A stretch of DNA of 64,000 bases from Massariosphaeria phaeospora (Eukaryota > Ascomycota > Dothideomycetes > Pleosporales). The position numbers and the translations under genes were made by a program. The notes beneath the pieces are model-generated. The model searched no databases and had not been told where the DNA came from. It worked only from the letters and a program-made list of their open reading frames with translations. Shown in pieces: positions 31,820-61,651 of the stretch; within the stretch, counting starts at the first letter, position 1; each line of letters begins with the position of its first letter. The DNA lies in contig JAADJZ010000001.1 of NCBI GenBank assembly GCA_011032825.1, positions 1,550,001 to 1,614,000 of the forward strand, written 5' to 3'.

Positions 31820-33245
31820 TTAGGAGAGCCAGACAACCATCAAAACTGCTGGAAGAAGGGCCACCAAGCTCGTCGTAACCAAACAAGAAGAACTATTTGG
31901 CGACCCAGGCACTGCGACCGTCGCCGTACCCTGGACTGTCACCACCGTAGCGCCGTTGCTCCCACCAGACGGCCCTGGCATCGGACCCCCAAGGCGAGAA
32001 GTTTGCGGTCCTGGCATTGCACTCCCAAGGCGAGAAGTCGGCGATCCTGGTACCGGACTCCCAACGCGAGAAGTCTGCATACCGATAGTCGGAGTAGCGC
32101 TTTGCGGAGCATTCACAGTAACAGTAACCGGAACTTCGACAGTCGGATTAGCGTCGGGCGAAGCAGTAACAGTAACTGGATCTGGGACCACAGGTTCAGA
32201 GCTTGTTGTATCGCCCGGCTTCCCCCGTGAGTCCCAATCGCCCCAGGAGGATCCATCCCAACCTTTGTGCCACACCGCCCCGTCTTCCGCGAAAGCAAAC
32301 ACATCGAGGCGATCCGAGCCCCAGGACACCGCTACGGGAGGCGTCGTGAACGGGCCCCCTCCTAACGAGTCCCACTGCTGCTGCCAGCTGTTTTCGTACG
32401 CAAGATGCCAAACCGCGCCGTCGGTGCCCAGGCCAAAAACGTCGAGCCGCCCAGAACCCCACGACACCACGGCTGGCGGGCTCGTGAACTCGCCGCCTAG
32501 GCTCTCCCAGTCCGAAGACCAGCTGCTGCCATCCCAGCCCTTGTGGTAGACTGCGAAATCTGTGCCCGTGCCGAAGACGTCGAGACGGTCGGTCGACCAC
32601 GACACGACGGTTGGGTCGCTTGTGAAGACGCCGCCCAGGGAATCGAACTGTTCTTGCCAGTTCTGGTCCCAGGACAGATGGTACATGGCCGCGTCCTCGC
32701 CGAGGCCAAAGATATCCAGGCGCTCGGGAGACCAGGACGTTACAGCAAGGTTGCTCGAAAACACGCCGCCGTGGTTCTCCCATGAGGGCTGCCAGTCCCC
32801 AGACCACTTTTCAAACGTCAACAGGGTATACTTCGTCTGGACGCGAGCCAAAACTTACTGATTGATGATACATAGCCCTGTCATCCTCCCCCACGCCAAA
32901 GATATCGAGCCTGCTCGCGCTCCAGGCATCAACCGCAAAAGGACCGCGGAACGTCTGATCATTCAGCGCGCCCCATTGCTCGTCCCAGTTTCCTTGCCAT
33001 GCTCGGTGCATCATCCTGTTGGAATCTTTGTCGAGCCCGAAGGCATCGAGGCGCTCCGAAGACCAGGAGACGAGCGTTGGAGCAACGCCTGCAAACGAAC
33101 CCCCGAGAGAGTCCCAGCTGCTTTGCCAATTCGAATCCCACGAAGTGTGCCACATTTGCGAGTCATCTCCAATGGCGACGATGTCGATGCGATTGCTGGC
33201 CCAACACGTGGCTGCCAGCAACTGGGTTGTGACAGATATAGTCAT
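31820..33245 (-). CDS. Seven-bladed PLL-like beta-propeller lectin with C-terminal anchor
   Basis: Two exons (intron 32807-32858, phase 0) give 457 residues. Seven repeats of the form [SA]W(S/G)xxRLDxFxxGxDxAxxHxxW are seen: CWASNRIDIV, SWSSERLDAF, AWSASRLDIF, SWSPERLDIF, SWSTDRLDVF, SWGSGRLDVF and SWGSDRLDVF, each followed by a WxxxWxSLGG-type strand. This is the sugar-binding propeller plan of Photorhabdus PLL-type (often fucose-binding) lectins, so glycan recognition is inferred. A Thr/Pro-rich stalk contains three SRxGxxxPGP modules. The C-terminus is hydrophobic (LVTTSLVALLPAVLMVVWLS), consistent with a GPI signal or tail anchor. The N-terminus MTISVTTQLLAATCWASNRI does not look like a clear signal peptide, so an upstream exon is possible. 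Confidence 0.8.
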
Positions 33246-33909
33246 GGTGTGTGCCGTATGCGCGAGAAGAAACGAGCGAGAGGGAGTATTGTGGTATGAG
33301 CAAGACGACGCAGATGTGGTGGTGTACAGGCGAGTTCTGCGCAAAGCTGTCGAAATAAAACAACCAGCATCGCAGCTTTAACTATCCACAAGAAAAGCTT
33401 GCGGCTGGAACCACGCAAGGCTGTAGGATTCGTAGACTGCGAGATCCAGCTAATAAGCGTACAGCGACTTGTGACAGCGTGCATGAGGCTGTACTCGCAG
33501 TGCTTGCGAATGCAAGCCATTGGGGCCAAACCACAAGCCGTCCTATCAGACAGAAGTCTCCATGACAACATAGGAATCCCGGCTGGATACGAACTAAAAG
33601 TCGCTGGATTCGACTAAGCGCTCGTATACCTGCATGCACCCTCGCGTAATCGGCCTTAGCTCTGGGGAAGGATGGACGGAGTAAGTCACAGGACGTGGGG
33701 AGCTGGTGCTCCAGTACCAGACCCTGCTGTGTTCGGTTAACGGCGGTGACAAGTATTAGATGTAGTAATAAGCTCAACGTGCCTAATCCCAATCGCAAAC
33801 CAAAAGTAATTACTTCGACCCCAAGTCTTTGTTACGCACCCATTTTCCCAGACAAGGACGTTCCCCAGTCGCGCTCCAACCCACCAGTCCCGTTCATCAA
33901 CAGCCAGTC
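33246..33909. other. Intergenic region
   Basis: No supported gene between the lectin start and the 3' end of the eqolisin-like gene. Confidence 0.5.
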
Positions 33910-34587
33910 CTACATCAGTCGTCTGACCTCAAACCCCGTCTCCGAAACCGTCGTCTTGCTATACATCTGCCCGGACGTGCCCTGGATCTCGTACGCGCCC
34001 GCCTTGGCCAGATTGACAGCCCCCCCACTCCTCGTCGTCGCATTCACCGCCGTGAAAGCTACGGTCCCGAAACTCGGCGGCGCGACGAGCTCGCCGTCGC
34101 GCACCTGGTACGCCTGCACCCACCAGTCGGCCATAGCGGCCGTCAGGCTAGCCGGGTCGACGCCGGCGGGCGCCGCGATGATTTGACGCGTTGTCTTGTT
34201 CTGCGACGTGTTCTCGATGGTGACGGAGCCACCTCCGGCTCCAGCCTCGATCGCGACGGTGACGGTGATCGAGTTACCACCGGCGACGGGCACCTGCGCG
34301 GTAGTGTCGGTTGCCGCGCCGGGGAAAAACGCGGAGAAGCTGGACAGCGTGCTGTTGAAGAGGATGCCGCCACCAAGGACGTATTTTTGATCTGCGCTGT
34401 CGCCGATGCCGATCCAGATTGAGAGTCGGCTGGTTCCGGACAAGGCGGGCACGGTGAAGGTGCCGGTGGCCGAGGTGAAGGAATCGCCAGCTGGGGCTTT
34501 GGAGACCGCGCCGGCGCGGTTGAGGTCGAAGGCGGCGGATACGCTGGAAGCCCAGCAGGCGGAGCTGGAGAGGGTGGAGAACTTCAT
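33910..34587 (-). CDS. Eqolisin-fold (peptidase G1-like) secreted protein lacking catalytic residues
   Basis: Single exon of 225 residues starting MKFSTLSSSACWASSVSAAF, a plausible secretion signal. The beta-sandwich blocks of family G1 are visible in order: GTFTVPALSG, WIGIGD (family WVGIDG), a block SFSAFFPG where active enzymes have a Trp/Tyr-rich strand, VTVAIEAGAGGGSVTIENTS, ADWWVQAYQ and FGTVAFTAVNA. In active G1 peptidases the catalytic Gln lies just after WVGIDGD in an ILQTG-type strand and the catalytic Glu in an AEWIVED-type strand. Here these read VLGGG and ADWWVQAY, so neither residue is kept. It is therefore probably a pseudoenzyme. The frame is intact with no stops. An alternative is a distantly related concanavalin-like secreted protein. 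Confidence 0.7.
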   Translation of the reverse strand: MKFSTLSSSACWASSVSAAFDLNRAGAVSKAPAGDSFTSATGTFTVPALSGTSRLSIWIGIGDSADQKYVLGGGILFNSTLSSFSAFFPGAATDTTAQVPVAGGNSITVTVAIEAGAGGGSVTIENTSQNKTTRQIIAAPAGVDPASLTAAMADWWVQAYQVRDGELVAPPSFGTVAFTAVNATTRSGGAVNLAKAGAYEIQGTSGQMYSKTTVSETGFEVRRLM

Positions 34588-35671
34588 GACGTGGAAAGGT
34601 GGGAAGCTCAAAGGAGAAGATTATGACCTTCTGAGGACTTCGAAGAGCTTCAAGTACGAGAAAAGGGCAGGAAATCAGAGCTAAGACTCACACAAGCCAG
34701 ATATTAATTGAATGACCTCTACCTGGTTTGTGGACGTTGAACTCTAGAGATACTTGTTAATCTGGGCGACGCAAGATGCTGTCTTTTCCGGGTTTTCTTC
34801 CACTATGGTAAGCTCAGACTGAGGCGCCCTGGTATCCGTTTTCCAAGCAAATTAAAGAATATCCCCAGTTGTTTCATATTGGAGTCGACATGAAGAGGTG
34901 ACCGTAAGAGCGGGAGATTCATTAGATAGAGCCATTAATATCATGGGTAGAATGACCCCCCGTGGCTTGGCGGCGTGGCAATGAAGGATATATAGACCTC
35001 GTGTAACGACGGGTAGACAAGAACCAACCTCTAACCATGGATTGGGCTGCATCTATCTGCGATAACCTCAGCTCAGCTGTCAATATGATTGATACAGGTC
35101 GCACAGATGGCGGATGTAGTGGATGTGGAGCATTTTCTCGATGAGTTTGCGTCGAGTGCAACTGCCGAATTCCAAGCCCAGTGGAGATTATTGAGTCGTA
35201 TATTGGCCCATGCGGTTACTGGGCGTATTCGGGTTTATGGAACAGTATTTCTTGAACAGTAGGGATAATGTTGTATGAAGTCACATGGATGTGTGGACGA
35301 GTTGGGAGCATGACGTCGGGTGGGATATGGTAGCGACGTGATAGGACTATTATAGCCCGGATCAGCGATTAAAGCCTCAGACCCGCCATTTCGAAGAGTT
35401 CGGGACCTTGCCAAGTATGCGACGATCAATCTTCTACCTGGGGATTAGGATGGACGCTCCAGATCATGAAGCAAAACTGCGATTGTTGAGGACCTCCTCT
35501 TTCTAGCCTAGGCTCATGGCGCCAATAGCCATGCGGTAGTTGTAGTTTCGATTTCAGCCCAACCTGTTTTCTATAAGGTACCGTGCAGTGTGCACTCTGC
35601 GACGGCTGCTCTTGCTTTCGTTCTGCTTCTACGCCAGAACCGTCGACTCCAACCAACATCCAACATCCAAA
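34588..35671. other. Divergent intergenic region
   Basis: About 1.1 kb between two divergent secreted-protein genes. No gene is supported. Confidence 0.5.
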
Positions 35672-37403: not shown

Positions 37404-38705
37404 ATGCGCTTCAAGGCGTCGATCCACAACATCACCACCTTTACGAGTAGGCCGTTGCCCCCTTTCCGGCGACATGTGTCGACTGACGCGTCCCAGAGCT
37501 CACGGCATCGCTCAACTCGCTCGGCCCGCTCGCGTGGGTGAAGCTCAGCGACGAGCACGTCTGCTTCACCATCATCCCGGAGCAGGGCACTCAGGTGTGG
37601 GCGTGAGTTTGGGCGCGTCTCGTCGCACCATGCGGCCGCTGATTGCCCCTCCACAGCGTCCTGTCCATTGTAAGCAAGCGCGCTGCCCCTCGCGCTGCCC
37701 CCTCCCGCCCCTCTAACGCGCCGGCCAGGACTCCATCTTCGAGACGTACACGGTGCAGTCGGCCGCCGGCAATGTCATCAACCTCGAGGTGCCGCTCACC
37801 TCGCTCACCCGCGCCCTCAAGTCGGCCCTCAACGCCACGTCGGCCCAGCTCCGCCTGACCAAGAAGGACAGCGCGCCGCTGCTGGCCCTGACCATCGCCG
37901 TCGCCAACGCGCCCAACGCGCACGCCGCCTTCCCCGCGACGGCCGCCAACAACGACGACGGCTTCGACGCGCCCTTCGACAGCGCGTTCGGCAGCGGCAA
38001 CCGCGAGACGATTGTGACACAGGAGATCCCCGTGCGCGTACTGGCGCCGGACACGGTGGCGGGCCTGCACGAGCCGCAGTGCCGTGAGCCCGATGTGCAC
38101 ATCATACTGCCGCCGCTGCTGCAGTTGAAGAGCATTAGCGACCGATTCACCAAGCTCGCCATGGCAGGAGTCAAGTCGGGCGCCGCAACCGCGCCGTCAC
38201 GAACGCGGCTGGAAGTGGCGGCGAATATGCACGGCTGCCTCAGACTGAGCATCAAGACGGACGCCATGAGCATATCCTCCGTCTGGACCGACCTCAACAA
38301 CCCCGAGCTGGACCCTAGTCAAGTCACTGGCATTGCCGAGCATCCCAGCACACGCATGAAGCAACTGGGGACCGCCGACGGGCGCAGTGACGAAGGGTGG
38401 GCATCCGTCCGCATTGACGGCAGAGACTGGGGAAAGGTGATGAGTGTGGGGAGACTTGGCGGAAGGGTCATTGCGTGTGAGTGTGAATGTGCCTTATGTT
38501 GGCGCCGGCCACCTTCGCTCTGTTCACGGCCAATGAAGCTGACCGCGTCCAGGTTTCTGCCACGATCATGCATTGATCCTCTACGTCTATCTCCCTAGTG
38601 ATAATGGCGAAGATGAATCCGTACTCACGGTAAGTGGCTCTGCAACCACCCTGTTTCTCTCCACTAACATGGCTATAGTACTATGTCAGTTCTTACAGCG
38701 CTTAG
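37404..38705 (+). CDS. HUS1: Checkpoint clamp subunit Hus1
   Basis: Subunit of the Rad9-Hus1-Rad1 (9-1-1) DNA-damage clamp that is loaded at damaged DNA to activate the checkpoint kinase. Six exons (introns 37447-37496, 37603-37656, 37670-37728, 38477-38552, 38630-38678), including a 13-nt exon, give 337 residues in frame. The start MRFKASIHNITTFTKLTASL is the family N-terminus, followed by WVKLSDEHVCFTIIPEQGTQ and DSIFETYTVQSAAGNVINLE. The middle contains EIPVRVL, the conserved LPPLLQLKSISDRF, and HGCLRLSIKTD. The C-terminus FCHDHALILYVYLP ending YYVSSYSA matches the final strands of the clamp. Residues 145-175 hold a Phe/Asp/Ala-rich insert. The first ATG is well placed. Confidence 0.93.
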
Positions 38706-39582
38706 ATACTGGCGACTTCTCGTTCTGTGCTGTTTTACGAAGCAGGCGTTATGTTCCCAGGAGATACCATTATGTCGATGCCCGCATTCTGCTAAAACTT
38801 GTGTCTACGCCTGCTACTCTCCATTAGAGCTCACAGATCGAACACTGGCTATACAACCGGCTCTATCTTACTTACCATTACCCGAAGCGTCTCTTTACCT
38901 CTTCTATCGACGCAAAGACCTCCGGCCAAGAAGATACACGACCACAACAATTCATCCTCGCTTCAGGATCCTCCCTAACTTGGGGTCTGCCGAACACGGA
39001 GAGGAAAGCATGGAGAGAAAAGACGCGCAGTTGCTGCGGTGCGCTCAAGGGCCGAAGACACTGAGAAATATGATTACGCTACTTATTAGCGGCCCGCGGG
39101 TGATACCGCAGAAGAAGAAGTTCGCCAAACGCGTTGTGCTAGTCTGCCCGTCCATATATCGTCCTTCCTGTGTCCTCGCTTCAACATGTTCAAACCATCG
39201 TCGATTGACGCTCAACATAACCACTATCCACTCTGGCCCCATTCACGGATCTCACTTAACCATGTGACCTTTTTCTGTCCCTCCGACCCCATCATCTCCC
39301 TGTCCACCAATAAGCATCAATCGCGCGTACATGATTCACAGTACTCACAGCACTGCTACGCAGGCAAGCTTAAAGCACACTTGGCGCACCCCGAAAAAGG
39401 TCATCGCACGGGCTACAGTCGCTGCCCCATTCTAAATTCCCGCTCGCGAGCAATGGCAGGCCCTATTCTGCAGATCAATCCCTCTGGATGGATGGATACA
39501 TAGATACAGACACCGCCCCCACGTGCGCGTCAGCTAGCAACGTTCGCAATCACACTCACAAACCCAGTAGTAATTCCATGCG

Positions 39583-39608
39583 TCCCCATCCCCATCCCCA
39601 TCCCCATG
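39583..39608. repeat. Microsatellite (CCCCAT)n
   Basis: About four tandem CCCCAT units in intergenic DNA. Confidence 0.85.
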
Positions 39609-40030
39609 CCAATCCACGTTCCACGCCCCCAACCAACCACACCCTCCACCCACCACGCAGCTCAGCTCAGCTCAGCTCCCAGATTGGAAACCTTCTAGAA
39701 GGGTGATTTAATCTGCTCTTCTGCTCTCCCCTTCCCAAGCTGTCAATCACCGTCTGACATGCATGATGGCGCAATCTCACTAGGCTGGCCAATAACAGAC
39801 GAGTCCATCGACCAGGCAGAGGGGCCAAGCCACAACGAACGCTTGTGGGGCAGGCAGGCAGGCGTGCGGCCACGTGTGTTTTGGGAACCGTCGTCTTGTT
39901 CTCGGTGTTCGGGGTACGTACCGGGGGTGGGTGTAGTGTGGGTGCAAGGGTGCCGGGCTCGGGTAGTACCAACGACACGAAACGAAACGACACGGTAGGG
40001 CACTGGCCTGAACTGGGGGCAGCTAGGCGG

Positions 40031-40081
40031 ACTCGGATGGTTTGGGGACTCGGACCGTTTGGGGACTCGGATGGTTTGTGG
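40031..40081. repeat. Three tandem 17-bp units
   Basis: ACTCGGATGGTTTGGGG is followed immediately by two copies that differ at two and one positions (ACTCGGACCGTTTGGGG and ACTCGGATGGTTTGTGG). Confidence 0.9.
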
Positions 40082-40650
40082 GTGTTTGAGCATGGGGTGG
40101 TGGAGGAGATGCGGACGGACGGACGCGGGTGATTTCCCCGTTAGGGACGAGGCTCAAGTGTGACGTTTGGGTTTACGGTTTTGGGGTACAGGCACAGAGA
40201 AAGAAAGCATTCGCGAGTTCAGGACGGAGCTGAGCTTGGTTTTGAGTGGTGGGTGGACGACTTGGCTTGCGTGCTCGGTGGGTGCACTATCACTTTCTTT
40301 CGCGTCTGCGTGTGATGAGATGATACCGGCAAAAAGAGAAGAGAGAGAGCTTCTGTTGCATTTGCGGACGGATACGGATGCGGATACGGATATTCGTTGC
40401 GCCAAGTCGAACTTGTATGGAATGGAATGGACATGTGGTGGTTGCTTCGACACGCAACTCACTTACGCACTGTCATCTCCAGCTTTCGGTGTCTCGTCGC
40501 GTGGCTGTTTCTTTCCGCAGTCGACATTTCGAGGCACTTTGGTGCTGCTGCTGTTGCTGCTGACCGATCAAGCACCAACCAAGTAGGGAAATTCGCGTTC
40601 CTTTCCTTAATGATGCGTTTTCCGTTGGACGGAGGACACAAACCTTTTTC

Positions 40651-40744
40651 GGCCTCCCGTTTGCTCGAGGACCCAAAAGAACAGATCGGGCCGAGTCCCA
40701 GTATCCGAGTGGACGGACCCGATACTGGGCCGCTCGAGGAGGCC
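40651..40744. repeat. Nested inverted repeat
   Basis: Inner arms CCCAGTATC (40697-40705) and GATACTGGG (40721-40729) are exact complements around a 15-nt loop. Outer arms GGCCTCC plus CTCGAG (40651-40669) pair with CTCGAGGAGGCC (40733-40744). It resembles a small foldback element or a hairpin-forming site. Confidence 0.55.
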
Positions 40745-43700
40745 AAAAGGTGGAGCCGTGAAGAGGGGAGCTGCTGCCTCAGCATGTCTTAGCCGTCGGG
40801 TTGGGCGGCTTACGCCTGTGGTACGTGGCCGTGGCTGACCCCCGCCGATGCCCCGAGCGGGACACCTGCGTCTGTTGACGGTCACGTGTGGGTTGAGGAC
40901 TCGTGGACCCGATCCGTAAGGGGCCAAAAAACGCCAAAAGTCATTGGCTGAAAGAGCATCGTGGGGGCGGAATAGGGGGAGGCCGTATCGTATAGGTTAG
41001 GTGTATGAACGCATTCACCGATGAGGCCTGACATTGCACTGCCATCCGTGCTGCGTTGTTTGAAACGCGTCGTCATTGAGCTGTAGATGTAGTGGATGTA
41101 GTAGCGACCGGCTGATTGGCCGTCAGGGCCACGCGTATCCACTCACTGACTTACTTACTCATCCTATTGCTGTTAGCTCAGCTACGCTAGGTAAGAAGTC
41201 ATTCGGGAGCTTAAGTCCGCCACCTCGTCTTCCAGTACCGTGTCACCCGTTGGAAGGATCCTTGCATGGAGACCGGTCGGATACGCACGCGGGCTGCTGA
41301 CGGAGTAAAGCTTGAGTGAGGCTTGGAAGCTAATGTGCGCACGGTAAAACGGTAAGGGTGGCTGTTGAGGTGGCTTAGACAACGGAGTGGGAGGATTATG
41401 CTTGCTGACCCTTGAACTAGTGACTTAATGTAGCTAGGTTTGGGATAAGAATTTGCGCTTCGAGCGGTTTTGCGCTTGAAAGAGTCAGACGGAACGGATA
41501 CTCGAACCAACGATGCTGCCCTCGTGGTTTAGAGTTAAATCGATGCTTCTGTGATTGAGTTCCCTTCAGGGCTTGACCGTGACGAATGTGACGTAGATGG
41601 TAGAGGCTCAGCGGCCGAGTTTATGGTTGAGACAAGTGGTCATCCGGAAACGGCCCGTTGCGATGAACCGTGGCTCAGACGCGAAGTATGATTGTGAGAG
41701 AGCAAGGAACTCCGCGATTTCAGAGTACAGTTGCTGAGGTGCCTCGTGGTAAGTAGTAGATAGATACAGGCAAAGCCGAGGTGTTTGATCGACCTGCTTA
41801 GTCACGTGAAGAGTCGCGGCCCCGCTTGTCATGAGTGAAGTTGAGGAAAGAGTGGACGATTGCGATATCTGCTGGTTCTTTGATTTTGGTGCTGGGTGAA
41901 TAGCATGAGTTCGTCTGGATTTGAGTCAGCCTACGCAGATTTAAAGGTCGTTTTGCTATAGATATTTCCGATCTGGGTATATCAGAATTCCCCTCTACAC
42001 AATGAGCGTAGCTCACAAATCCTAACAAATTATCAATCTATCATTTTCAGCAAGACATTCACGAAAGGAAATCACTGTTTGTCAGGTGAAATAGAGCAAC
42101 GATGTGGGATGTCAAGAAATTCAGATATGACGACCCACCTTCGCGATTATTGTGGGCTCACTGGGAGACTTGAGATACTCGAGATACGTCGGAAACCCCT
42201 GATGGAACCTGGTTTCGTCATGGAGAGTGTGCTCGTGCGGAAGTGACGATAGGTTGTACGCAATCAATAGCACAACTTGTGCTAGGGTTACATAGGCCAT
42301 ATCATCGACATCTTCGGGGAGAACCTGCCAATGTTGTACAGACCTCGGCTCGTGAACTTTCCGTAAACTTTACCGAGGTGGACTCAATTAGATTCGTATA
42401 TGGACTCATTGGCAATAGTCGGAGGTACCATTTGGTGCTTGTGTCTTCCATAGGCCAATGCAGCAGCTATACCAATCGTCTTCGTTTCTCGGCCAGCATC
42501 CCGTGCTGGTGACGACCACAGTGCGGCGAAGTCGGAACTGGTGCGAAGCGTCGGCGAAGCCGTGTCCTCGATGGAATCGATGACCTCATGCATCGCCAAC
42601 TATGCACTAAGAACACGCGTTCTAGAGAATGACTCCTAATGCTCACCTCTTACAAATCGGAAAAAGGGCGCAACCATGCACCTCAATTCCACGCCTCCAC
42701 GCCTCCACACCACTATAGCAGAAACTCGCCCCTGTAAATCGCGCACCTTTAAAGATAATTTCCTATTCGAAATGAAATACTAGCTGTCGTCAGATGGCGT
42801 AGCAGGATCGGACGCGGCTGGACGCCAGGCAAAGATGAGACGTGTCGATCGGAGTTAGCGCCCGCAGCCTTATCGCCAGCCTTGCCCAGCGTCCGGCTCT
42901 CGTAAGGCTGAGCGATTGGCGCTGCGGCACGGCCGGGTTCTGATAATTTGATAATCGACTCGCGGGATCCGTGCGTGCATCTTCGCTTGTTCAGGAAATC
43001 GGTCTCTTGCTGTTCTGGATGGGCGTGTGATTTGATGATGCTGCGGACCGGTCAGCGACATGGCGTGGGGACTTTTATCCTGTTACGTCTCTGGTGCGTT
43101 GATGTGGAGGACGATGAGTCGAAGGTGCATCGCGAATGACTCCGCCGGCGGTGCTAGGTGCTGTCAAGGCGATGGGACAGGGTGGGTGACCGGGACAAGA
43201 AGCAGGTAACGCTACACAACGCGTTCTCGCGGCGGAGACTCCATGATAATGGCACCATCTGCATGCACGCATCCATAGGACTTGGCATCCAAAAGGTTTC
43301 GTGTGCGACGGCAACTGCAAGCGAGTGGAGCGAACTGGTCCACGAACACATGTTCGTCACTGGTAGTTCCCGAAGGCTACGGAGTTCCAAGCCCGTCCAT
43401 AGCAGGGGTCACCTTCTCTGACACGGGCGCAGCATGTGCTTTCGCATTCCGCGAGACGAATGAGCTCTGTCGTATCAGCAGACGGTTCGTCATTGGTGTA
43501 TGCCGAGATGATAATATTAGCAGGGCTCTACCCAAGCCCGAACGTGTACGAGTGAACAGGGTGGGTGGAATCTGCAGATGGAAAACGTGGAAGATGACAA
43601 AACTCCGATGGCCAACGCCATGAGGAGACATTTCAAAACCGTTGATCTAGCAATGTGATTGCTTCGCGCGTACCTTTCCCTTCAGCAGGCCCCCCTAGAG

Positions 43701-46552
43701 AAAAAGACCCCAAAATAGGCCTCCTTGAGCGCTGTCGCCCTGTCCAAAGCACCCAAATAGTGCCAGCTTCGGGCACGCCTGCTGCTGACTTGCATCGTGA
43801 TGGCCAATTGGCGCAATATAACGAGCCAATGAAGCGTTTCAGCTGCATTCCATTACGCTAGTAAAAAGAGCTTACTGGATAGGGGATATGTGCGAGAAGA
43901 ATGCTTGGGCACAGCCCTGGATCAGCCCTACCGCAGGGATGACCGTGGGAGAGCGCGCCTGTCGCGGTTCACAGATCGGAGGACGGCCTATTTTTGGGGT
44001 ACATGTGCGCCATCGCGATATGCAGCGCTGATGGGTTCCTGCAGCTGGAGAAGATTTGTCGGGCTTCTGGAAGGGTTCCGGGGAGACGGGTACGTCGTTG
44101 TGGAGTGAGACCGACGAGGGTGCTGTGGACCAGAGAACGGGAGTCTGGTAGGCAAGGCTGTAGAGTGTGCTTTGCAATGTGCAACTGCGAGCGCGTGGAC
44201 GTTGGGTTCCTAGCTTGTATTGATAGAAGCCGGTTGGCTTCAGGTTCCGTATCGAGGCAATACACACTGGCTCGGGGCGGCCCCTCCACTGCGGAACCTC
44301 GAGGACTCGGGCAGATGGTTCGCCGAGAGCTTCTCTTGTGTTGGTAGTAGCATCGTCCAGCCCCCAAAGATAGAACTCGGGGACTCGTGATATAGTGCGC
44401 GCTGGCTACCTAATCGATACCCTCCCACATAGCCGGGACGTATGTGGTACACCTCGTGGCTTGCGTCACGCAAGCAGGGCTCAATCCCGAGGCCGGGGAG
44501 ATGCAGCGACAACGCCTGCAGGCAGCCTACGTAAAGACTCGAGGTAAGTAGAATGATGTGAGAGAAGCAGACAGTAATCCATCTGGGAGTGATAATGCAG
44601 GCCCCCAGCCTCATCCGCAAGGGAGAAGATTTCTGCAGCCCAATTACTCTAGGAAGGGGCCGTTCTGGACGACGATTGGAGCAGGGAGGCTTCTTGATCT
44701 CCGAAGGGTTGATAGTGTTGGATGCGGTCCGTGCGCGACGAGTAAATGTCCAAAGCGATTCGGCGACCCAGGGGCGATTCCCATGCCCGAAGCAGTTTGC
44801 CTGCTTCCGAGCACATTGTGCGAAGGCTGCCTGCCCGCCGGTGAAGAAATGCGCACTGGCGCTGGCTGCGATGGCGCAAACAGCAGAGGGTACAGACGAC
44901 GGTCATGGCGTCGAAGGTGAGGTCGTGTCTGGCCGTGTTGCGGCAGCCATTCCGCTCCGGGAGCGCGCCGAACAACCTTGGGGGGGGGGAGCGCCCGCAA
45001 CCCGCTGCGCATCTTCGTATTGACTCCACTCTGGCTCCCGTGGCCAGCTGAAGAAACGTCGAGTCTGCTGAAGACGGCCGGTGCCAGGTGCATTTGTGCG
45101 CTCCGCTGCGGGCACAAGTCGCCGAGCTTGCAGACGCGATGCTACGAGGCCATGCCACCTGTCGGCGGCCCGCCCAGCTCTCAGGCACAACCGTCCACCG
45201 TCTACCGGCGCCCGCACAGCGCCAGGTCCCCGTCCCTGTCAGAGCTGGTAGAGAGTGGAGTCGGGTCGAGTCTGTGCCCAACGCTCCGGCCTGCGCCTGC
45301 GCCGTCGACGTCTGGCGCAGAACGGTGGGCGCCGTGTCGTGATTCGCAGCGGCAGAGGTGCGAAGCAGCCCTGCAAGAGAGCGTCAGGTACGCGGTGCTG
45401 TGACGCTGCGACGCGGCGACGCGGGCAAATGAGTCCATGTGCAACGCGCGATAATTGACTCGAAGCGGAAAGCAGACAGCGGCGACGAGCAACCACAGCT
45501 GCATTGTGCTGCAAGATGTGACGATGCACGGCGCTCCCGCCCATTCCACATGGCCCTGTGCCTGTCTGCCGTGCCCGTCGCGGCGCCGTCGGAATGGCGA
45601 GAGAAGCCTCGCAGGCTGGAGCAGCGAGACTATAGCGAAACCGGTGCAACGGCGCCATCTCTGGCGTCCCTATTCGCGGGTCCGGAGTGCTGCAGCTCGT
45701 GATGGCATGGGAGGCAGCATGTTGCATGTTGCCAGGAGGAGATGCTGCTGGGCTGCTGGGCTGCTGGGCTGCGGGCGATGACTGTGTCCAGCGTTAGGTA
45801 ATCCACCGGCAGGCCAATCAGCGCCGCCGCCGCGCTTGTCCCTCGTGGTCTCCTTCCCTGCCCTTCCGTTCCACCCCCTCCCCTCCCATCTCACGTCGGT
45901 CCTACGCCGAACCACCCCACGCTTTTCGACCCCTCTGCGCCAGAACCAGAGCCAGCACTAGAGGACCATGACTGCCGTCGGAGCTCGACCGGATCATGCC
46001 CACCGAGCCCTGCTGAGCGAGGATGAGTCGTCCAGCGGGAGCGGAGGCAGGCAGCCCCTCCTCCTGGTCGTCGTCCAGACCAGTGCTTCCGGTGCTTGCT
46101 GTGCTCAACTTCGCAGTCCAGCGCCGCACGCTGCAGCTCCTAATCGATAGCACCACACCGTGTCGTCAGCAGCCGGCAGCCCAGGGTCCATCAGCTTGCA
46201 CGGGGACGGGGCCTGCCCATAGCACGCCAGCTATCCGGCTGGCACTGGGAACATGGCATTACGCGCTGCACCGACCGCACACATGCACGTCCGTGCCACG
46301 CCGCCCGTGCACCGCATTGCGGCTCTCGCTCACCTCACACTGCCACACCCCAGCTCTCCACTACCACCAGTCGACTATTCCTGTCGCAAGCCCTGACTAA
46401 CCTCCCGTAGCTGCCGTTGCAAGACTACCCATAAGCCGCGCCTCTTGACAGGGACAGGGGCCCGGGTGCCCGTGACGCTGGACTAGGTGCCTGATGGTGG
46501 CTTGCCAGGACCGCATTCCGGTAGGACGGGTCTAGGGACCGTGGACATTTCT

Positions 46553-46558
46553 TATAAA
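46553..46558 (+). promoter_or_regulatory. Probable TATA box of the micro-ORF transcript
   Basis: TATAAA at 46553-46558 precedes a pyrimidine- and CA-rich leader with no AUG for about 340 nt. A start of transcription about 30 nt downstream, near 46585, would put all four small ORFs on one transcript. Other TATAA-like strings lie at about 46665, 46740 and 46801. Confidence 0.5.
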
Positions 46559-46901
46559 GATGCCTGGGGGGCGGGCTTAATCCAGGCAGTCAGTTCAGTA
46601 AACCAGTCACTTGTCTACGCCTTTCTACCTATCACCCCCCTCCTTTCTCTTTCGTCGTCTGCTTTATAAGAGTGTGGATTTTCCTAAGACTCAGTCGTTC
46701 CCAGCACAGTCATCCGTCTCGACCTTCTTCGACTCTCTTCTATAAACGTCTCGTCTCTTCGCCTCACACCAACGCATCCTACTGCTCCTACTTTCCACAC
46801 TATAAGACCGCACTACCGTCACCACTATCTCCTAGTCCCATCTGTCTCAGTTCCTTCCGGCTACCTCAATCACCACATACAACTCCAAAACTACCGTCGT
46901 A

Positions 46902-46925
46902 ATGGGCCGAGGTGGATACAACTAA
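46902..46925 (+). CDS. Micro-ORF 1, heptapeptide MGRGGYN
   Basis: The first AUG after the TATA box opens a seven-codon frame MGRGGYN followed by TAA. The Gly/Arg/Gly/Gly codons are GGC CGA GGT GGA. Start context is GTAATGG with a purine at -3 and G at +4. No longer frame overlaps it, and the flanks are CA-rich and free of other AUGs. Two more copies of the same frame follow at 47035 and 47132. I know of no characterised product; the conservation of the peptide with changed codons is the evidence that it is translated. Confidence 0.65.
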   Translation: MGRGGYN

Positions 46926-47034
46926 GCGTCCAATACAACACCCATCTACTCTACACGAGAAGACCTCCCACTATCATACCGATCTACTACACCCAAGAAC
47001 CACCCACCCTACCAACATACACACCACCGTCTCC

Positions 47035-47058
47035 ATGGGTCGCGGAGGATACAACTAA
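47035..47058 (+). CDS. Micro-ORF 2, heptapeptide MGRGGYN
   Basis: Same peptide and same TAA stop as micro-ORF 1, with codons GGT CGC GGA GGA in place of GGC CGA GGT GGA. All differences are synonymous. It lies 133 nt downstream (start to start). It is preceded by CAAGAACCACC about 30 nt upstream and followed by a GACGCCA string; both flanking strings recur around micro-ORF 3. Confidence 0.65.
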   Translation: MGRGGYN

Positions 47059-47131
47059 GACGCCACACGTTCTCCAATTAGGCCAAAAGGCACTTCGCCA
47101 CCAACATCTCACCAAGAACCACCTCGTCGCC

Positions 47132-47155
47132 ATGGGTCGCGGAGGCTACAACTAA
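47132..47155 (+). CDS. Micro-ORF 3, heptapeptide MGRGGYN
   Basis: Third copy, codons GGT CGC GGA GGC, again TAC AAC TAA. It starts 97 nt after copy 2. Start context GCCATGG is near the Kozak optimum. Flanking CAAGAACCACC and ACGCCA are shared with copy 2, suggesting tandem duplication of a unit followed by synonymous drift. Confidence 0.65.
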   Translation: MGRGGYN

Positions 47156-47237
47156 ACGCCAGCGGGCGATTCCGCTAACCGCCACGTCTCGATATCCATT
47201 GCAACACACAACCGACAACCCATCCCACACCATAACC

Positions 47238-47345
47238 ATGTCGCCACCATCACCACAACCGCATAACCACCACCGCCCCCGATTACCCTCCAAGACGCTC
47301 CGCAAGAAACGAACCAAACGGTGGCGAACACCCACATCGACATAA
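47238..47345 (+). CDS. Small basic 35-residue ORF downstream of the heptapeptide ORFs
   Basis: The fourth AUG of the putative transcript opens a 35-codon frame beginning MSPPSPQPHNHHRPR and continuing with the strongly basic LRKKRTKRWR before TPTST and TAA at 47343-47345. Pro/His-rich start plus an Arg/Lys cluster suggests nucleic-acid or acidic-partner binding, but this is only inference. Reinitiation after the tiny upstream ORFs could allow its translation. It may be chance, since one 35-codon frame is not unusual by itself. Confidence 0.4.
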   Translation: MSPPSPQPHNHHRPRLPSKTLRKKRTKRWRTPTST

Positions 47346-48605
47346 ACCCCACTTCTTCTCATGTATCAACTCTCTCCTCATCGACACATCTGTATATATC
47401 TACTCTCTCCTACCACAGAATCGTCACTTCTACTTCTTCTTCTTCTCTTTTTTCTTTTCTTTTTTCTTTTCTTCGCTGTTAGTCCGTTCTTTCTACTTGG
47501 CATTTCAAGCGAGCGAGCGATTCATGTACGGCATCACGGGTATAGGGTTAGCATCGGGCACGGGCATGAAATCACGGATTAAACGGCATGGGAATACCTG
47601 GACACTCGGCATTCGGCGCATCATTATAGAACGGTAGAGCGGGAACTGGGCTACGCTCTTCACTGAGCTCGGGATCTGACATTTGGGACTTTGGCGTTAC
47701 TTGCTCCTTTATAGACGGTGGAAATCACGCTCTTCATTGAGCTCGGGCAAGCAAGGGTTGGGGTGTTTCCCGGGTTGGCTTCTTTCACTCCATCCTTTCC
47801 GATCTGTCAAATTTTTTTTGTTACTTTTGGAGGGCATTTTATTTTTTCGTTTGGGGTAGCACGGCGAGCTGGTTCTCGCGTCGATTACGAACACGTTTTA
47901 GATAGGCTATCTACACCCTCTTCTTTCAACCAGAATACCAAACCCCCAATTATCTATGCAGCAATCAATCCGTCTTCGCATCTCCGCTCGTTTGATCTCG
48001 GGGCCTTTTTGTCGCTTTCGGTTTCCCGCCCACAATTTCACTTTCCGACGCAAAACCTGGAGCGCACCGACCAGTCAGCCGAAAGCCCGCCATGCATGTC
48101 TCGGTTACTTTTCATAATAATCGTCGCAAGCGATATCGATATCGATATCGACATCGACATCGACGTCAACACACGTGGAGTAAGTAAGGTGAGACGGCAA
48201 ACGTGCGGGAAGTGGAGCCGTGCCGTTTTGTTTCACGCAACGGCCATCTGATCTGAGCGCCGTCCGGACGGACTGACTGTGCCACACAGACACATGACCA
48301 CGCCTCGCCCGTTGAAGCGTCATAAGCTATAACGGTCGTGGCTTGTTCGCCTACCTAGGGGGTGCGCGGGGCGGCACGCGGCACAGTCAGGTGGCAACGG
48401 AAGCGAAGCGGGCGGAAACTCCGCACCGAGGGCGAAGGCAGGAAGGAAGGATGGAAGGAAGGAAGGAAGGTGGCAGATACAGAAACGGTGAGACAGCATG
48501 CGATGCTCGTCACGGGAGCTGTACGTTTGGGAACCGTCTAGGCCATTCGCGCACGAAAGGAGAAGAAGACGAAGAAGCCGAAGAAGAAGCGAAACGGGTT
48601 ACGAC
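47346..48605. other. Intergenic region downstream of the micro-ORF locus
   Basis: Holds a polypyrimidine (CTT/TTTTC) tract at about 47410-47475. A 21-bp imperfect direct repeat at 47653-47673 and 47727-47747 shares TGAGCTCGGG. A GATATC/GACATC hexanucleotide run lies at 48131-48167 and a (GGAA)n run at about 48440-48470. No gene is supported, apart from a possible last exon of MSS1 near 48510-48540. Confidence 0.5.
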
Positions 48606-50503
48606 TTACTTCTCAAAGACCACGCCCAATACCTCCTCGACGTCGCCGCTCTCTCCACGCCCCGTGATCCTGGCTAGCGCGTCTGCAGCCAGGCGGAGCG
48701 ACTCAGCGGCTACAACGATATCAACCTCATCCGTCGCAGCGGGCTCGGGAAGCGCGTGGGTAAATTGCGCTTGCGGCGATGCTCTGTCGCCTTCCAGAGA
48801 CGCGTCTCGTCCGGAGTTGGCCTGGACAGCTGTCAGGAACGCCTCGAGATGGGAGAGACACTCGGTCAGTAGCACGCGCTGGCGCTCCGTTGCGCCTAGA
48901 GACTCTTGCCAGACTGACGGGTCGGCGTCGCTGTCGGGGACGATGGCTGCGGTCATGTCTTCGAAGGTTTTCGTGAGGCCATGCAGGAAGGACTGGATGT
49001 GCCCTGAATCCTTTTGGTATTGGTCTGCGGCGTGGGACGGCGTGGCTGGCTTGCAGGAGATGGAAGATATACGGTCTCGATGGATTCCGAGGACAGATGC
49101 TAGTCTTGTCTTCGATTCGTCGAGCGCTGTTACGGGGGAGGGTGGAAGTTGATCGATTTTGTTGAGTGCAACTACAACATTGATGCCGAGCTGGACGCAC
49201 TGCTGTGCTGTCTCAGTGACTTCGGGGTTCATGTCGGCTGTGGCGTCCTGGACGACGATAAGGACGTCAGACTCGAGCGCCCGTAGCTTAGCGCGCCTGA
49301 TGCCCTCTTGCTCAACGGCGCCGACGACATCCGGGCCGACGAGTCCCGCTCTCCTCAAGCCGGCCATGTCGCCGATCTTGACTAGCCAGCCGCCCAGGTC
49401 AATGCCTACTTCAACAACATCTCTCGTCGTCCCAGCCTCGCTAGAAACAATGGCTGCTTCTCGCCCTACAATGCGGTTCAGTAAGCTGCTTTTTCCCGCA
49501 TTAGGAGCCCCTAGAAGAGCAACACTTATGCCACTTCGCAGAAGCTCGCCTCGGACGGCGTTTGCAACATGGGCTTCCATTTGAGTTCGCAGAGCGTACA
49601 CCTGGTGCGCCACGGATGCGCACAGAGCAGCTGGCGATTCGTCGAAGTGCTGGTCTTCGGAGAAGTCAATGAAGGCTTCCAACTCGCCTCTGGCCTGCAA
49701 CAGCAGCGTGCGCCAGTGCTCATACCGCGCCGCTAGGGAGGATGTAGTTCCACGGACCGACAACTTGCGCTGCTGCTCGGTCGCTGCTGAGAGAGTCTCG
49801 CCCAGCGACTCGATCTGGGGCAGGTCCATTCGGTTGTTGGCAAAGGCGCGGCGGGTGAACTCTCCAGGCTCCGCATAACGGATGCGATGAACGACGTCTG
49901 ATGCGTGGGCACCAGGGCTAGCGCACTCAGGGATGGCAGCAAGTACAGCTCGGACTATGGCGGGGCCACCGTGGACATGTAACTCGAGGACGTCTTCGCC
50001 AGTGACTGTGTTGGGCGCGGGGAAGTATAGCACAAGCGCGCCAGAATCCAGCAAGGTCGCGGGCGACGGGGGCAGACGGGGCGCATAGAGCTTGCGGAGG
50101 CTCGCATAGCGCGGCTTGGGAAATGGCGACGCGGGACAGAGGCCGTGGTATACCTGGGCACGGGTCAGTGTTGCGCTGACGAGCACGAAAGGATGCGCGG
50201 GGCAGAGCGCACCTGGCTACATGCTGGGCCCGAGATGCGGATTACAGCAATGGCCGCCTTTCCAGGCGCAGTCGAGAGGGCGTATATCGTCGGCTCGGCG
50301 CAGTTGGCTACGAGAGCAGAGCTGTAGCTGGAGTGGTGGAGACGAGGCTGGCCGGGCTTCAGACGCCGCCGCGCCGGGGGTATGAGACCATGCCCACGGC
50401 GGTGGTGGTGACGGAGGGACTGCGCCCAGCAGGCGGAGGACAATCGCAGCAGCGGTCGTGGGAGAGCGATGGCGGTGATCAGGGGCCGGACGGAAGCTCT
50501 CAT
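48606..50503 (-). CDS. MSS1: Mitochondrial tRNA modification GTPase Mss1 (MnmE/GTPBP3 family)
   Basis: Partner of Mto1 in making the 5-carboxymethylaminomethyl-type modification of wobble U34 in mitochondrial tRNAs. Two exons (intron 50154-50212, phase 0) give 612 residues. The N-terminus MRASVRPLITAIALPRPLLR looks like a mitochondrial presequence. The TrmE N-domain starts at PTIYALSTAPGKAAIAVIRI and contains ELHVHGGPAIVRAVL and YAEPGEFTRRAFANNRMDL. The G domain has G1 GAPNAGKSS, the SEAGTTRD switch, DMAG where DTAG is usual, and NKID. The C-terminal helical domain is present, but translation ends GVVFEK at a TAA that overlaps a perfect GTAAGT donor. The expected C-terminal Cys-x-Gly-Lys motif is not found in the next 250 bp. 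Divergent from MAK16. Confidence 0.9.
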
Positions 50504-59281: not shown

Positions 59282-61651
59282 ATGCTTTTCGACTTACTCG
59301 TACTGAGCGTCGCTGTCCTGCTGAATGGCAGGACAGCAAAGGCCCAAAGCGATGGTACCCCCTGCCAATCTGTTAGCTCCATGTCTGCCGCCTACGTCTC
59401 GCTTTTCCCAAGTGCAACCCAAGCCTTGGTTCCCGCCCAAGCCGCCGAGGACTGCTTGAAATCTGTACCCATCGATAAAGAGGAGGATTTGGCTTTACTC
59501 GAAGAAATGAGATTCTACATAAACTGGCAATCGAATCTCGCATATCTAGTAGATCCTCCGGAGGGTTATACAGAGGAGCGTGTGGATACTTTGGAAGAGA
59601 TACAGAAAATTACAGACAAGCTAAAGAATGATGAATATGAGGATGAGTACACGTTGATGTCTGACATCTCCGCGGTATTGACGAAATCCTACGACTTCCA
59701 TTTTTCGTTCAGTGCCGACATTGCGGATGTATTCGCCTTTAGGCGAGGGAATGTTGGCCGAGGACTGCTCGACGAGTTTGCGCTCATATCCGTCTCCAGT
59801 GATGGGAAAGAGCTGCCGAAGTTATACAACTACTGTAAGCTCTTGTGTTCTGGCAACATCTTGGCAAGAAGCTAACACTATGCTTAGACGATATCATGGT
59901 AGAGAAAGATGCAGAAAAGGAAGGTTGGAAGCCTTCGCCCGTCACACAGATCAACAACCAGAGCGCCGAAGACTATATCCAGGAGTGGTCAAAAAGATTT
60001 GTATTCCACGAAGATCATGCTCGTTACAATGCTCTATTTCCCAACCAAGCGTCCATTTCCATGGGACGACGAGGCAATCTATTCGGTCGGAGCGACTTCC
60101 CGGACGGAGAACATACCACAGTCGAGCACGAAAATAAGACTGTCAACACATTCATCAACAACGCTATCGTACCACTTGACAGCTTCGATGATATTGAGGA
60201 CGGCGAGAGCTTTTTCGCACGCTTCTGTAATCAAGGACCGCCAAAAACCGAGGGGAATAGTAAGCTCAAACGCGCCACTCCAACCAAACCCAAGCGCCAA
60301 GAAGCCGAACCCACCGCGACCAACTATCCTGCTCCCGCTGTCCTCCACTCTGAAGCGATCATCGGAGGCTACTATCTTAGTGGTCAGGGTTACGAAGATG
60401 TTGCGGTTCTGAGCGTGCCATCATTTAGTTCTGGAACTGAGGAGGGGCCAGCAGAGTTCCAAGACCTGATTGGGGGGTTTTTGAAAGATGCGAAGGACAA
60501 GGGCAGGAAGAGGCTCGTTATTGATCTCCGAGGCAACACCGGTGGCTTTGTGTTTCTAGGATATGACCTTTTCAAGCAGGTAAGCACACAAGTCCGATTC
60601 CTGCACAAGTACACGCTGACCTTCTCAGCTCTTCCCCTCAGAAGATCCTTATGGAGCTTCTCAATATCGCGCCAATGAAGCATTCGACATCACCGGCCAA
60701 TTTTTGACGACCGTACTCGAGAACGCAACCTACGAGGACGCTTTGAACGAGTTCAAGAGTGCCGGCTTGGAAAGCAATCTCGTGTCGCTGTACAAGAGCA
60801 TGTTTAACTACAAGCTTTACCTCACTACCGATAACAAGAACTTCACATCCTGGGAGGAATACTTCGGCCCACACGTCCATAACAACGACAACTTCACCAC
60901 CGTATCGCGCGTAGACCTGAACAACTTCTTCTCCGACGACCTGAGCTTGGACGTGACGGGCTACCGCACTCGCGCCGACAAGCTCAACAAGGAGCAGCCT
61001 TTCGAAGCCGACAAGATTGTGCTGCTCCAGGACGGTGCCTGCGGTTCTACTTGCGCTGTCTTCGCCGAGTTTATGAAGAGCCAAGGAAGCGTGCACCAGG
61101 TCGTCGTCGGCGGCACCCCCAAGACGGGTCCCATGCAAGGCGTGGCCGGCTCGAAGGGTTCGCAGACCTACACCTGGACGCAGGTGCAGGAAGAAGCCGT
61201 CCTGGCATACACCAACATGCCCGATCACCAAGAGGAGCTCAACGGAACCGAGCTCGGCTCTCTTGTTTTCGCCGACCGCCCACTCATGCGCTCTGCCTAC
61301 CAATCCAGCGGACGCACAAGGTCCAGCGTCAATCTCCGCGACAACATCCGCATCGGCGACGATACGAGCACGCCGCTGGAATTCGTCTACGAGGCGGCCG
61401 ACTGCAGGGTCTTCTACACGGCGGAGATGGTCCGCGATGTCGAGGCTACGTGGAAGAAGACGGTCGATGCGAAGTGGGGCGATGCCAACAAGTTCTGTGT
61501 GGAGGGCAGCGTTGCGCACAAGTCGTCGCTGAGCGGCGGCGCGGAGATCAAGAACGACAAAGACAAAAAGGGGGCTGCCGCGTCTAAGGGTGTTGATGGC
61601 GGCTTGGTGGCTGCTGTTGTGGGTATTGTCGGTATGCTGTTGATGTTGTGA
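59282..61651 (+). CDS. Secreted peptidase S41 family protein (CPAF-like)
   Basis: Three exons (introns 59835-59887 and 60580-60628) give 755 residues. A signal peptide MLFDLLVLSVAVLLNGRTAK is followed by CQSVSSMSAAYVSLFPSATQ and a helical N-domain. An inserted region contains KLKRATPTKPKRQ, a likely cleavage or linker site. The S41 core has VIDLRGNTGG (about 395-404), and the nucleophile Ser555 sits in LLQDGACGSTCAVFAEF. A hydrophobic C-terminus (GGLVAAVVGIVGMLLML) after a Lys/Asp-rich stretch suggests a GPI anchor. The family includes the peptidase encoded in ustiloxin-type clusters, but also many unrelated secreted proteases; this gene lies about 39 kb from the UstYa-like gene. The frame also opens 13 codons earlier (59243); the ATG giving the cleaner signal peptide was chosen. 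Confidence 0.9.

Follow-up and report, generated by a model that had tools for sequence, protein, structure and literature searches.

We found three very short open reading frames (ORFs) in tandem in the genome of the fungus Massariosphaeria phaeospora (Pleosporales), all of which encode the same heptapeptide, MGRGGYN. No further exact copy was found in the genome, the three differ by silent changes alone, and they do not belong to any larger ORF that we could recognize. Judging from the sequence, we put the chances at about even that the locus is a stand-alone polycistronic gene of micro-ORFs for a single heptapeptide, which would be read by scanning and reinitiation. The window (the whole stretch of DNA that was analyzed) is 64,000 nucleotides long and corresponds to bases 1550001-1614000 of contig C1 (2,976,207 bases). 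All coordinates below are positions in the window. The main features are:

37717..38598, + strand: Hus1-like checkpoint protein, the left-hand neighbor (stop-to-stop frame)
46553..46559, + strand: TATA box (TATAAAG), a candidate promoter element, recognized as a sequence word
46600..46901, + strand: G-poor, ATG-free leader (putative start point)
46902..46925, + strand: micro-ORF 1, MGRGGYN and TAA; G at -3 and G at +4
47035..47058, + strand: micro-ORF 2, MGRGGYN and TAA; T at -3 (a weaker context) and G at +4
47132..47155, + strand: micro-ORF 3, MGRGGYN and TAA; G at -3 and G at +4
47238..47345, + strand: ORF of 35 amino acids with its stop, from a fourth ATG 82 nt after micro-ORF 3; pI 12
47420..47480, + strand: CT-rich tract close to where the unit presumably ends (putative role)
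48606..50216, - strand: MSS1/TrmE tRNA-modification GTPase, the right-hand neighbor, converging (stop-to-stop frame)

Three micro-ORFs for one heptapeptide

Each copy has the form ATG-GGN-CGN-GGN-GGN-TAC-AAC-TAA, or seven codons and a stop. The gap from ORF 1 to ORF 2 is 109 nt and the gap from ORF 2 to ORF 3 is 73 nt. Because the three copies occupy three different reading frames, they cannot be parts of a single reading frame. Between 46563 and 47237 there are exactly three ATGs, and every one of them opens MGRGGYN followed by TAA. This interval ends just inside two further ATGs: the one at 47238 and another at 46560, which touches the TATA box and opens MPGGRA and a stop. The original prediction, which was made from the sequence, had described three tandem MGRGGYN ORFs behind a TATA box, with no other ATG in this interval; the copies are exact and lie where it had placed them, the count of ATGs agrees, and the TATAAAG word is present.

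Differences between the copies

Four sites vary among the three copies. Each falls on the last base of a codon (for Gly, Arg, Gly, and Gly in order), and together they make up all four fourfold-degenerate sites of the 24-mer; the remaining 20 positions are invariant (the third bases of the Tyr and Asn codons do not vary in any copy). The probability that four variable sites would be the fourfold-degenerate sites is 1 in 10626 given 24 sites; it is 0.0014 if the last positions of the Tyr and Asn codons are also permitted, and 1 in 3060 if the start and stop codons are left out. Copies 1 and 2 differ at three sites, copies 1 and 3 at four sites, and copies 2 and 3 at just one (23 of 24 bases are alike), so the silent-site signal comes mainly from copy 1 versus copies 2 and 3. 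Also, the copies were spotted through the identity of their peptides, which in itself favors silent differences. This bias is partly relieved by a DNA repeat finder that is blind to the peptide and that groups the same three places into one family (D1; 81% and 68% to the first place, 37 nt).

Outside of the micro-ORFs, the downstream flanks are alike at 14, 7, and 12 of 40 positions, versus 11.2 expected (standard deviation 3.0). These values are near chance, so on this side even copies 2 and 3 are not embedded in a longer duplication of recent origin. The upstream flanks are alike at 19 of 40 positions for copies 1 and 2, 20 of 40 for copies 2 and 3, and 11 of 40 for copies 1 and 3 (with the same expectation of 11.2 and standard deviation of 3.0). 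The likeness of two of these pairs implies that a larger common ancestral unit or a common context element is possible.

That the same peptide is encoded by slightly different DNA suggests that the peptide itself matters. On the basis of three copies in one genome, it seems difficult to account for the pattern unless the peptide is under selection. Both parts of what had been predicted here, that the copies differ just at synonymous third positions and that the peptide is under selection, find support in the confinement of the differences to the four fourfold-degenerate sites.

Another explanation for the 24-mer is that it is an RNA or DNA element, such as a site for a protein, and that it only has the appearance of an ORF. 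Some upstream sequence is indeed held in common, as CGTC occurs at -7 to -4 before each of the three ATGs. We nevertheless consider such an element improbable because the differences fall exactly at the third bases of four successive codons, and because the ATG and the stop are retained in three different frames. Furthermore, there were no Rfam matches in the window at the gathering score, and a structured RNA was rejected, as 46600-47480 folds like shuffled sequences (z = 0.67; in 17 of 20 shuffles the fold is as good or better).

Rarity of the pattern

The three copies are the only exact matches that were found in the M. phaeospora assembly (42,079,485 bases in 51 contigs). If up to three mismatches are allowed, 0.02 matches are expected per shuffled window, and none of 100 shuffles had three or more. 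At this level there are five further places in the genome, all with three mismatches, and a reversed control pattern also gives five, so these are at the level expected by chance. The 24 bases of one near-match recur unchanged on contigs C1, C23, and C24, so this near-match may sit within a repeated element. A search of the genome for paralogues with 1 kb of DNA from the locus returned only the locus itself (simple repeats and very common words were skipped). The heptapeptide pattern was also absent from collections of viral and prokaryotic contigs, which says little about fungi.

We surveyed 264 kb (the window and 200 kb to its left; both strands, with every ATG counted) for other ORFs that encode the same peptide. 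Among 4693 ATG-ORFs of 5-40 codons, no others lying within 1 kb of each other encoded the same peptide, and lowering the limit to 3 codons did not add any such pair; this survey covers less than 1% of the genome, and rarer loci of a similar kind are possible elsewhere. Similarly, the 264 kb contained no other pair of ORFs within 1 kb that were of equal length (6-40 amino acids) and at least 60% identical. In 60 second-order Markov sequences of the same length and trinucleotide composition, no same-peptide pair of at least 5 codons arose.

These results bear on whether the copies could have arisen by chance or be the remnant of an old local duplication without function. That we have a single genome, that some of the upstream flanks are alike, and that copies 2 and 3 hardly differ are all consistent with this. 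Against it are the lack of any comparable pair in the 264 kb or in the 60 simulated sequences, and the comparison of copy 1 to the others, in which changes are seen at fourfold-degenerate sites and at none of the other 20 positions. Overall, we give little credence to a nonfunctional origin.

No larger gene recognized at the locus

The frames around and after the repeats have hexamer scores of -0.54 to 0.01 per codon, which classifies them as non-coding (in the training set of 36 long ORFs, the lowest score is 0.19 and the median 0.39). None of 10 frames from the locus and its surroundings matched Pfam at E = 0.1. The only hexamer segment on the 3' side of the repeats is at 48045-48170 (score 17.1), and it overlaps a CGATAT repeat at 48131-48163. 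Two frames were compared to 5.8 billion proteins: 46691-47155 had 18 candidates and 47082-47342 had three, none of them at E of 10 or below, in a search that required shared five-residue words and similar length and so misses distant or very short relatives. None of the consensus forms of splice donor that we tested was found in 46580-48179, and so we rejected a splice-site role for the repeat. tRNAs were another candidate that we rejected, as none was found in the window.

The micro-ORFs might instead be pieces of a longer, unrecognized protein gene with introns or with non-AUG starts; in favor of this, the copy-3 frame is open for 148 codons upstream. But that frame is non-coding by its score and has no Pfam match and no relatives; also, the copies use three frames and TAA closes each one. 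A longer gene is thus very improbable.

The main rival to a micro-ORF gene is a translational-control leader. The three identical upstream ORFs (uORFs) would stall or reset ribosomes, either by arrest of the nascent peptide at the stop or by GCN4-like reinitiation, and would gate an ORF further downstream, most likely the 35-amino-acid ORF at 47238. Several short ORFs, a long leader, and gaps that resemble those used in reinitiation are features that the locus shares with the uORFs of GCN4 and cpc-1. Passages from the literature describe uORFs of such kinds in fungi, including those of cpc-1 (PMC5487733) and the Cpa1 arrest peptide (PMC11550727), and a regulatory uORF peptide of six residues (MAGDIS) is on record in an excerpt of PMC7394265. 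The Cpa1 arginine attenuator peptide and MAGDIS are similar to MGRGGYN in being short, sequence-constrained peptides that end at the stop, but the present peptide is encoded three times, and we recognized no gene of such kinds downstream. Unlike in GCN4 or cpc-1, neither a bZIP ORF nor any other main ORF was found downstream: of the + strand frames of at least 71 amino acids after the repeats that were compared to Pfam, none had a family at E = 0.1, and the frames that were scored do not look coding. Likewise, no conserved main ORF follows among the frames searched, and before 48180 there is no consensus donor that could join one to the transcript. Furthermore, plain reinitiation is indifferent to the sequence of the peptide, and arrest requires one copy, not three; the uORF peptides of GCN4 and cpc-1 are not known to be copies of one peptide. 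We therefore view a translational-control leader as unlikely, though clearly less so than the other alternatives considered above.

Promoter and leader

Besides the TATA box at 46553, there are TATAA words at 46665, 46741, and 46801, which makes four in 250 bases close to the presumed start, perhaps corresponding to several start points. The region 46641-47240 is poor in G and in TG: across 5268 overlapping 600-nt intervals (with the locus itself counted), just 22 are as poor in G and 19 are as poor in TG. The low content of both fits with a leader that is easily scanned. After cutting out the three micro-ORFs, 3.8 ATGs are expected from the base composition and 1.36 from a first-order simulation, in which 24% of runs had no ATGs (P = 0.24); 180 of the 5268 intervals contain three or fewer ATGs. 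Since the dinucleotide composition (low TG) predicts as much, the depletion of AUG is not significant by itself. The locus had been predicted to lie in an AUG-depleted, leader-like sequence, and of this the leader-like part holds up (it is fronted by a TATA box and is G-poor), while the AUG depletion is weak.

A putative polycistronic gene

We propose that the heptapeptide gene would be transcribed by RNA polymerase II as a single transcript that starts some tens of bases 3' of the TATA box at 46553 and that has some 300 nt of G-poor leader ahead of the three copies of MGRGGYN. Ribosomes would scan to ORF 1, read its seven codons, resume scanning after termination, and reinitiate at ORF 2 and then at ORF 3; some might skip ORF 2 by leaky scanning. 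The gaps of 109 and 73 nt are within the range over which 40S subunits can resume scanning after a short ORF and reinitiate, as is known from GCN4-type leaders. Given gaps in this range and the start contexts listed above, one mRNA with up to three rounds of initiation could yield a heptapeptide that acts in trans. Because each reinitiation would be partial, the copies would increase the dose, not the diversity, of the product. The product would probably be GRGGYN, once the initiator methionine is lost, and it would act inside the cell. The calculated [M+H]+ values are 754.330 for MGRGGYN and 623.290 for GRGGYN. We infer the transcript, the reinitiation, the removal of methionine, and the action in trans. 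N-myristoylation of the glycine end was also considered; by the usual rule, the tyrosine is at a critical position and speaks against it. What is known from budding yeast counts against the reinitiation model: according to a passage of PMC11952965, translation of an ordinary polycistronic RNA does not normally go beyond the first cistron in this yeast.

The 35-amino-acid ORF is either a possible last cistron or a chance ORF. It is very basic, and only 32 of 2340 ORFs of 25-60 amino acids have a net charge per residue that is as high. Its hexamer score is 0.006 per codon; in a set of 1868 short stop-to-stop frames, the 90th percentile is 0.017, just above this value.

Comparison to known systems

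The original prediction had pointed to a likeness in plan to the tarsal-less (tal) gene of insects, also known as polished rice or mille-pattes, and the sequence supports this: in both, a single stretch contains several tiny ORFs whose peptides are nearly the same. According to an excerpt of PMC6124123, tal of the moth midge Clogmia encodes peptides of 11, 10, 11, and 29 amino acids, with gaps of 111, 126, and 334 nt, and in addition a last peptide of 39 amino acids; here, there are peptides of 7, 7, and 7 amino acids with gaps of 109 and 73 nt, followed by the basic 35-amino-acid ORF. This ORF has the position of the last peptide in the tal genes, as described in that excerpt, but the likeness was noticed afterwards and the coding score is under the 90th percentile, so we consider it a lead. 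Although the repeated short ORFs for the same peptide on one stretch are present, neither of the two defining sequences that we tested for was found: the tarsal-less consensus LDPTGXY (as given in the excerpt of PMC6124123) is absent from MGRGGYN, and the last-peptide sequence GREETSSCRRRR is absent from the basic fourth ORF. The locus is thus not a member of the tarsal-less family. It also differs from tarsal-less in its fungal host and in the exact identity of its peptides, and its transcript is a putative one. A related and more tentative reading, which we would still rank as a real possibility, is that a tarsal-less-like gene has evolved independently here, with the three copies of MGRGGYN and the very basic 35-amino-acid peptide together being the product, as regulators that act in trans.

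Fungi can produce polycistronic RNAs, as reported for Agaricomycetes (excerpt of PMC4503453), and short linkers permit reinitiation on such RNAs in several fungi, as in IGG1/IGG6 from Glarea (excerpt of PMC10352335). Unlike our locus, the cistrons of these transcripts encode ordinary proteins, with means of 256 and 277 amino acids in the excerpt of PMC4503453, which gives none for the ascomycete Neurospora crassa. A full-text search of the open-access literature found no mention of MGRGGYN. The string GRGGYN occurs in four papers; by their titles, two concern nuclear import and two the delivery or expression of cargo. For a fungal locus of this plan (polycistronic micropeptides, repeated uORFs, or tal-like), there was no report in the titles and abstract openings of the matches listed from the open-access literature. 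Small-ORF surveys rarely reach the range of seven codons; for example, the shortest ORF in a survey of 31 fungal genomes was 11 amino acids, according to the excerpt of PMC7394265.

The locus is novel, and we infer its function. If the peptide is real, then polycistronic micropeptide genes exist in fungi, the heptapeptide is among the smallest gene products known, and tandem ORFs for the same peptide are a simple signature for genome-wide searches. If the reading as an independently evolved gene of the tarsal-less plan holds, no other eukaryotic gene known to us has a repeated peptide cistron as short as this one.

The surrounding region

The micro-ORFs had been predicted to lie in about 10 kb without ordinary genes, and this stands as far as it was tested. 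The Hus1-like frame ends at 38598 and the MSS1/TrmE frame extends rightward from 48606; the latter is 100% identical to an M. phaeospora protein over 96% of the query, which identifies the fungus and agrees with the Dothideomycete affinity assumed in the original prediction. Between them are just five short hexamer segments (cutoff, score above 14), with scores of 15-17, as compared to 158 for MSS1. About 8 kb of this interval (38600-46550) lies 5' of the micro-ORF unit and has no strong coding signal by hexamer scoring. For a fungal genome of compact organization this gap seems large, and it could be regulatory DNA of the unit.

Further to the left, on the - strand, 31823-33344 contains a DUF346 repeat protein (PF03984; 31823-32851) and a frame at 32814-33344 that resembles it but has no Pfam match, and 33913-34611 encodes a Peptidase A4 family protein (PF01828). 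On the right side of the window, a + strand frame at 59845-60675 has a CPAF-like PDZ domain and the beginning of an S41 peptidase domain (by Pfam). The next frame, at 60704-61651 on the same strand, has no Pfam match and is perhaps a later exon.
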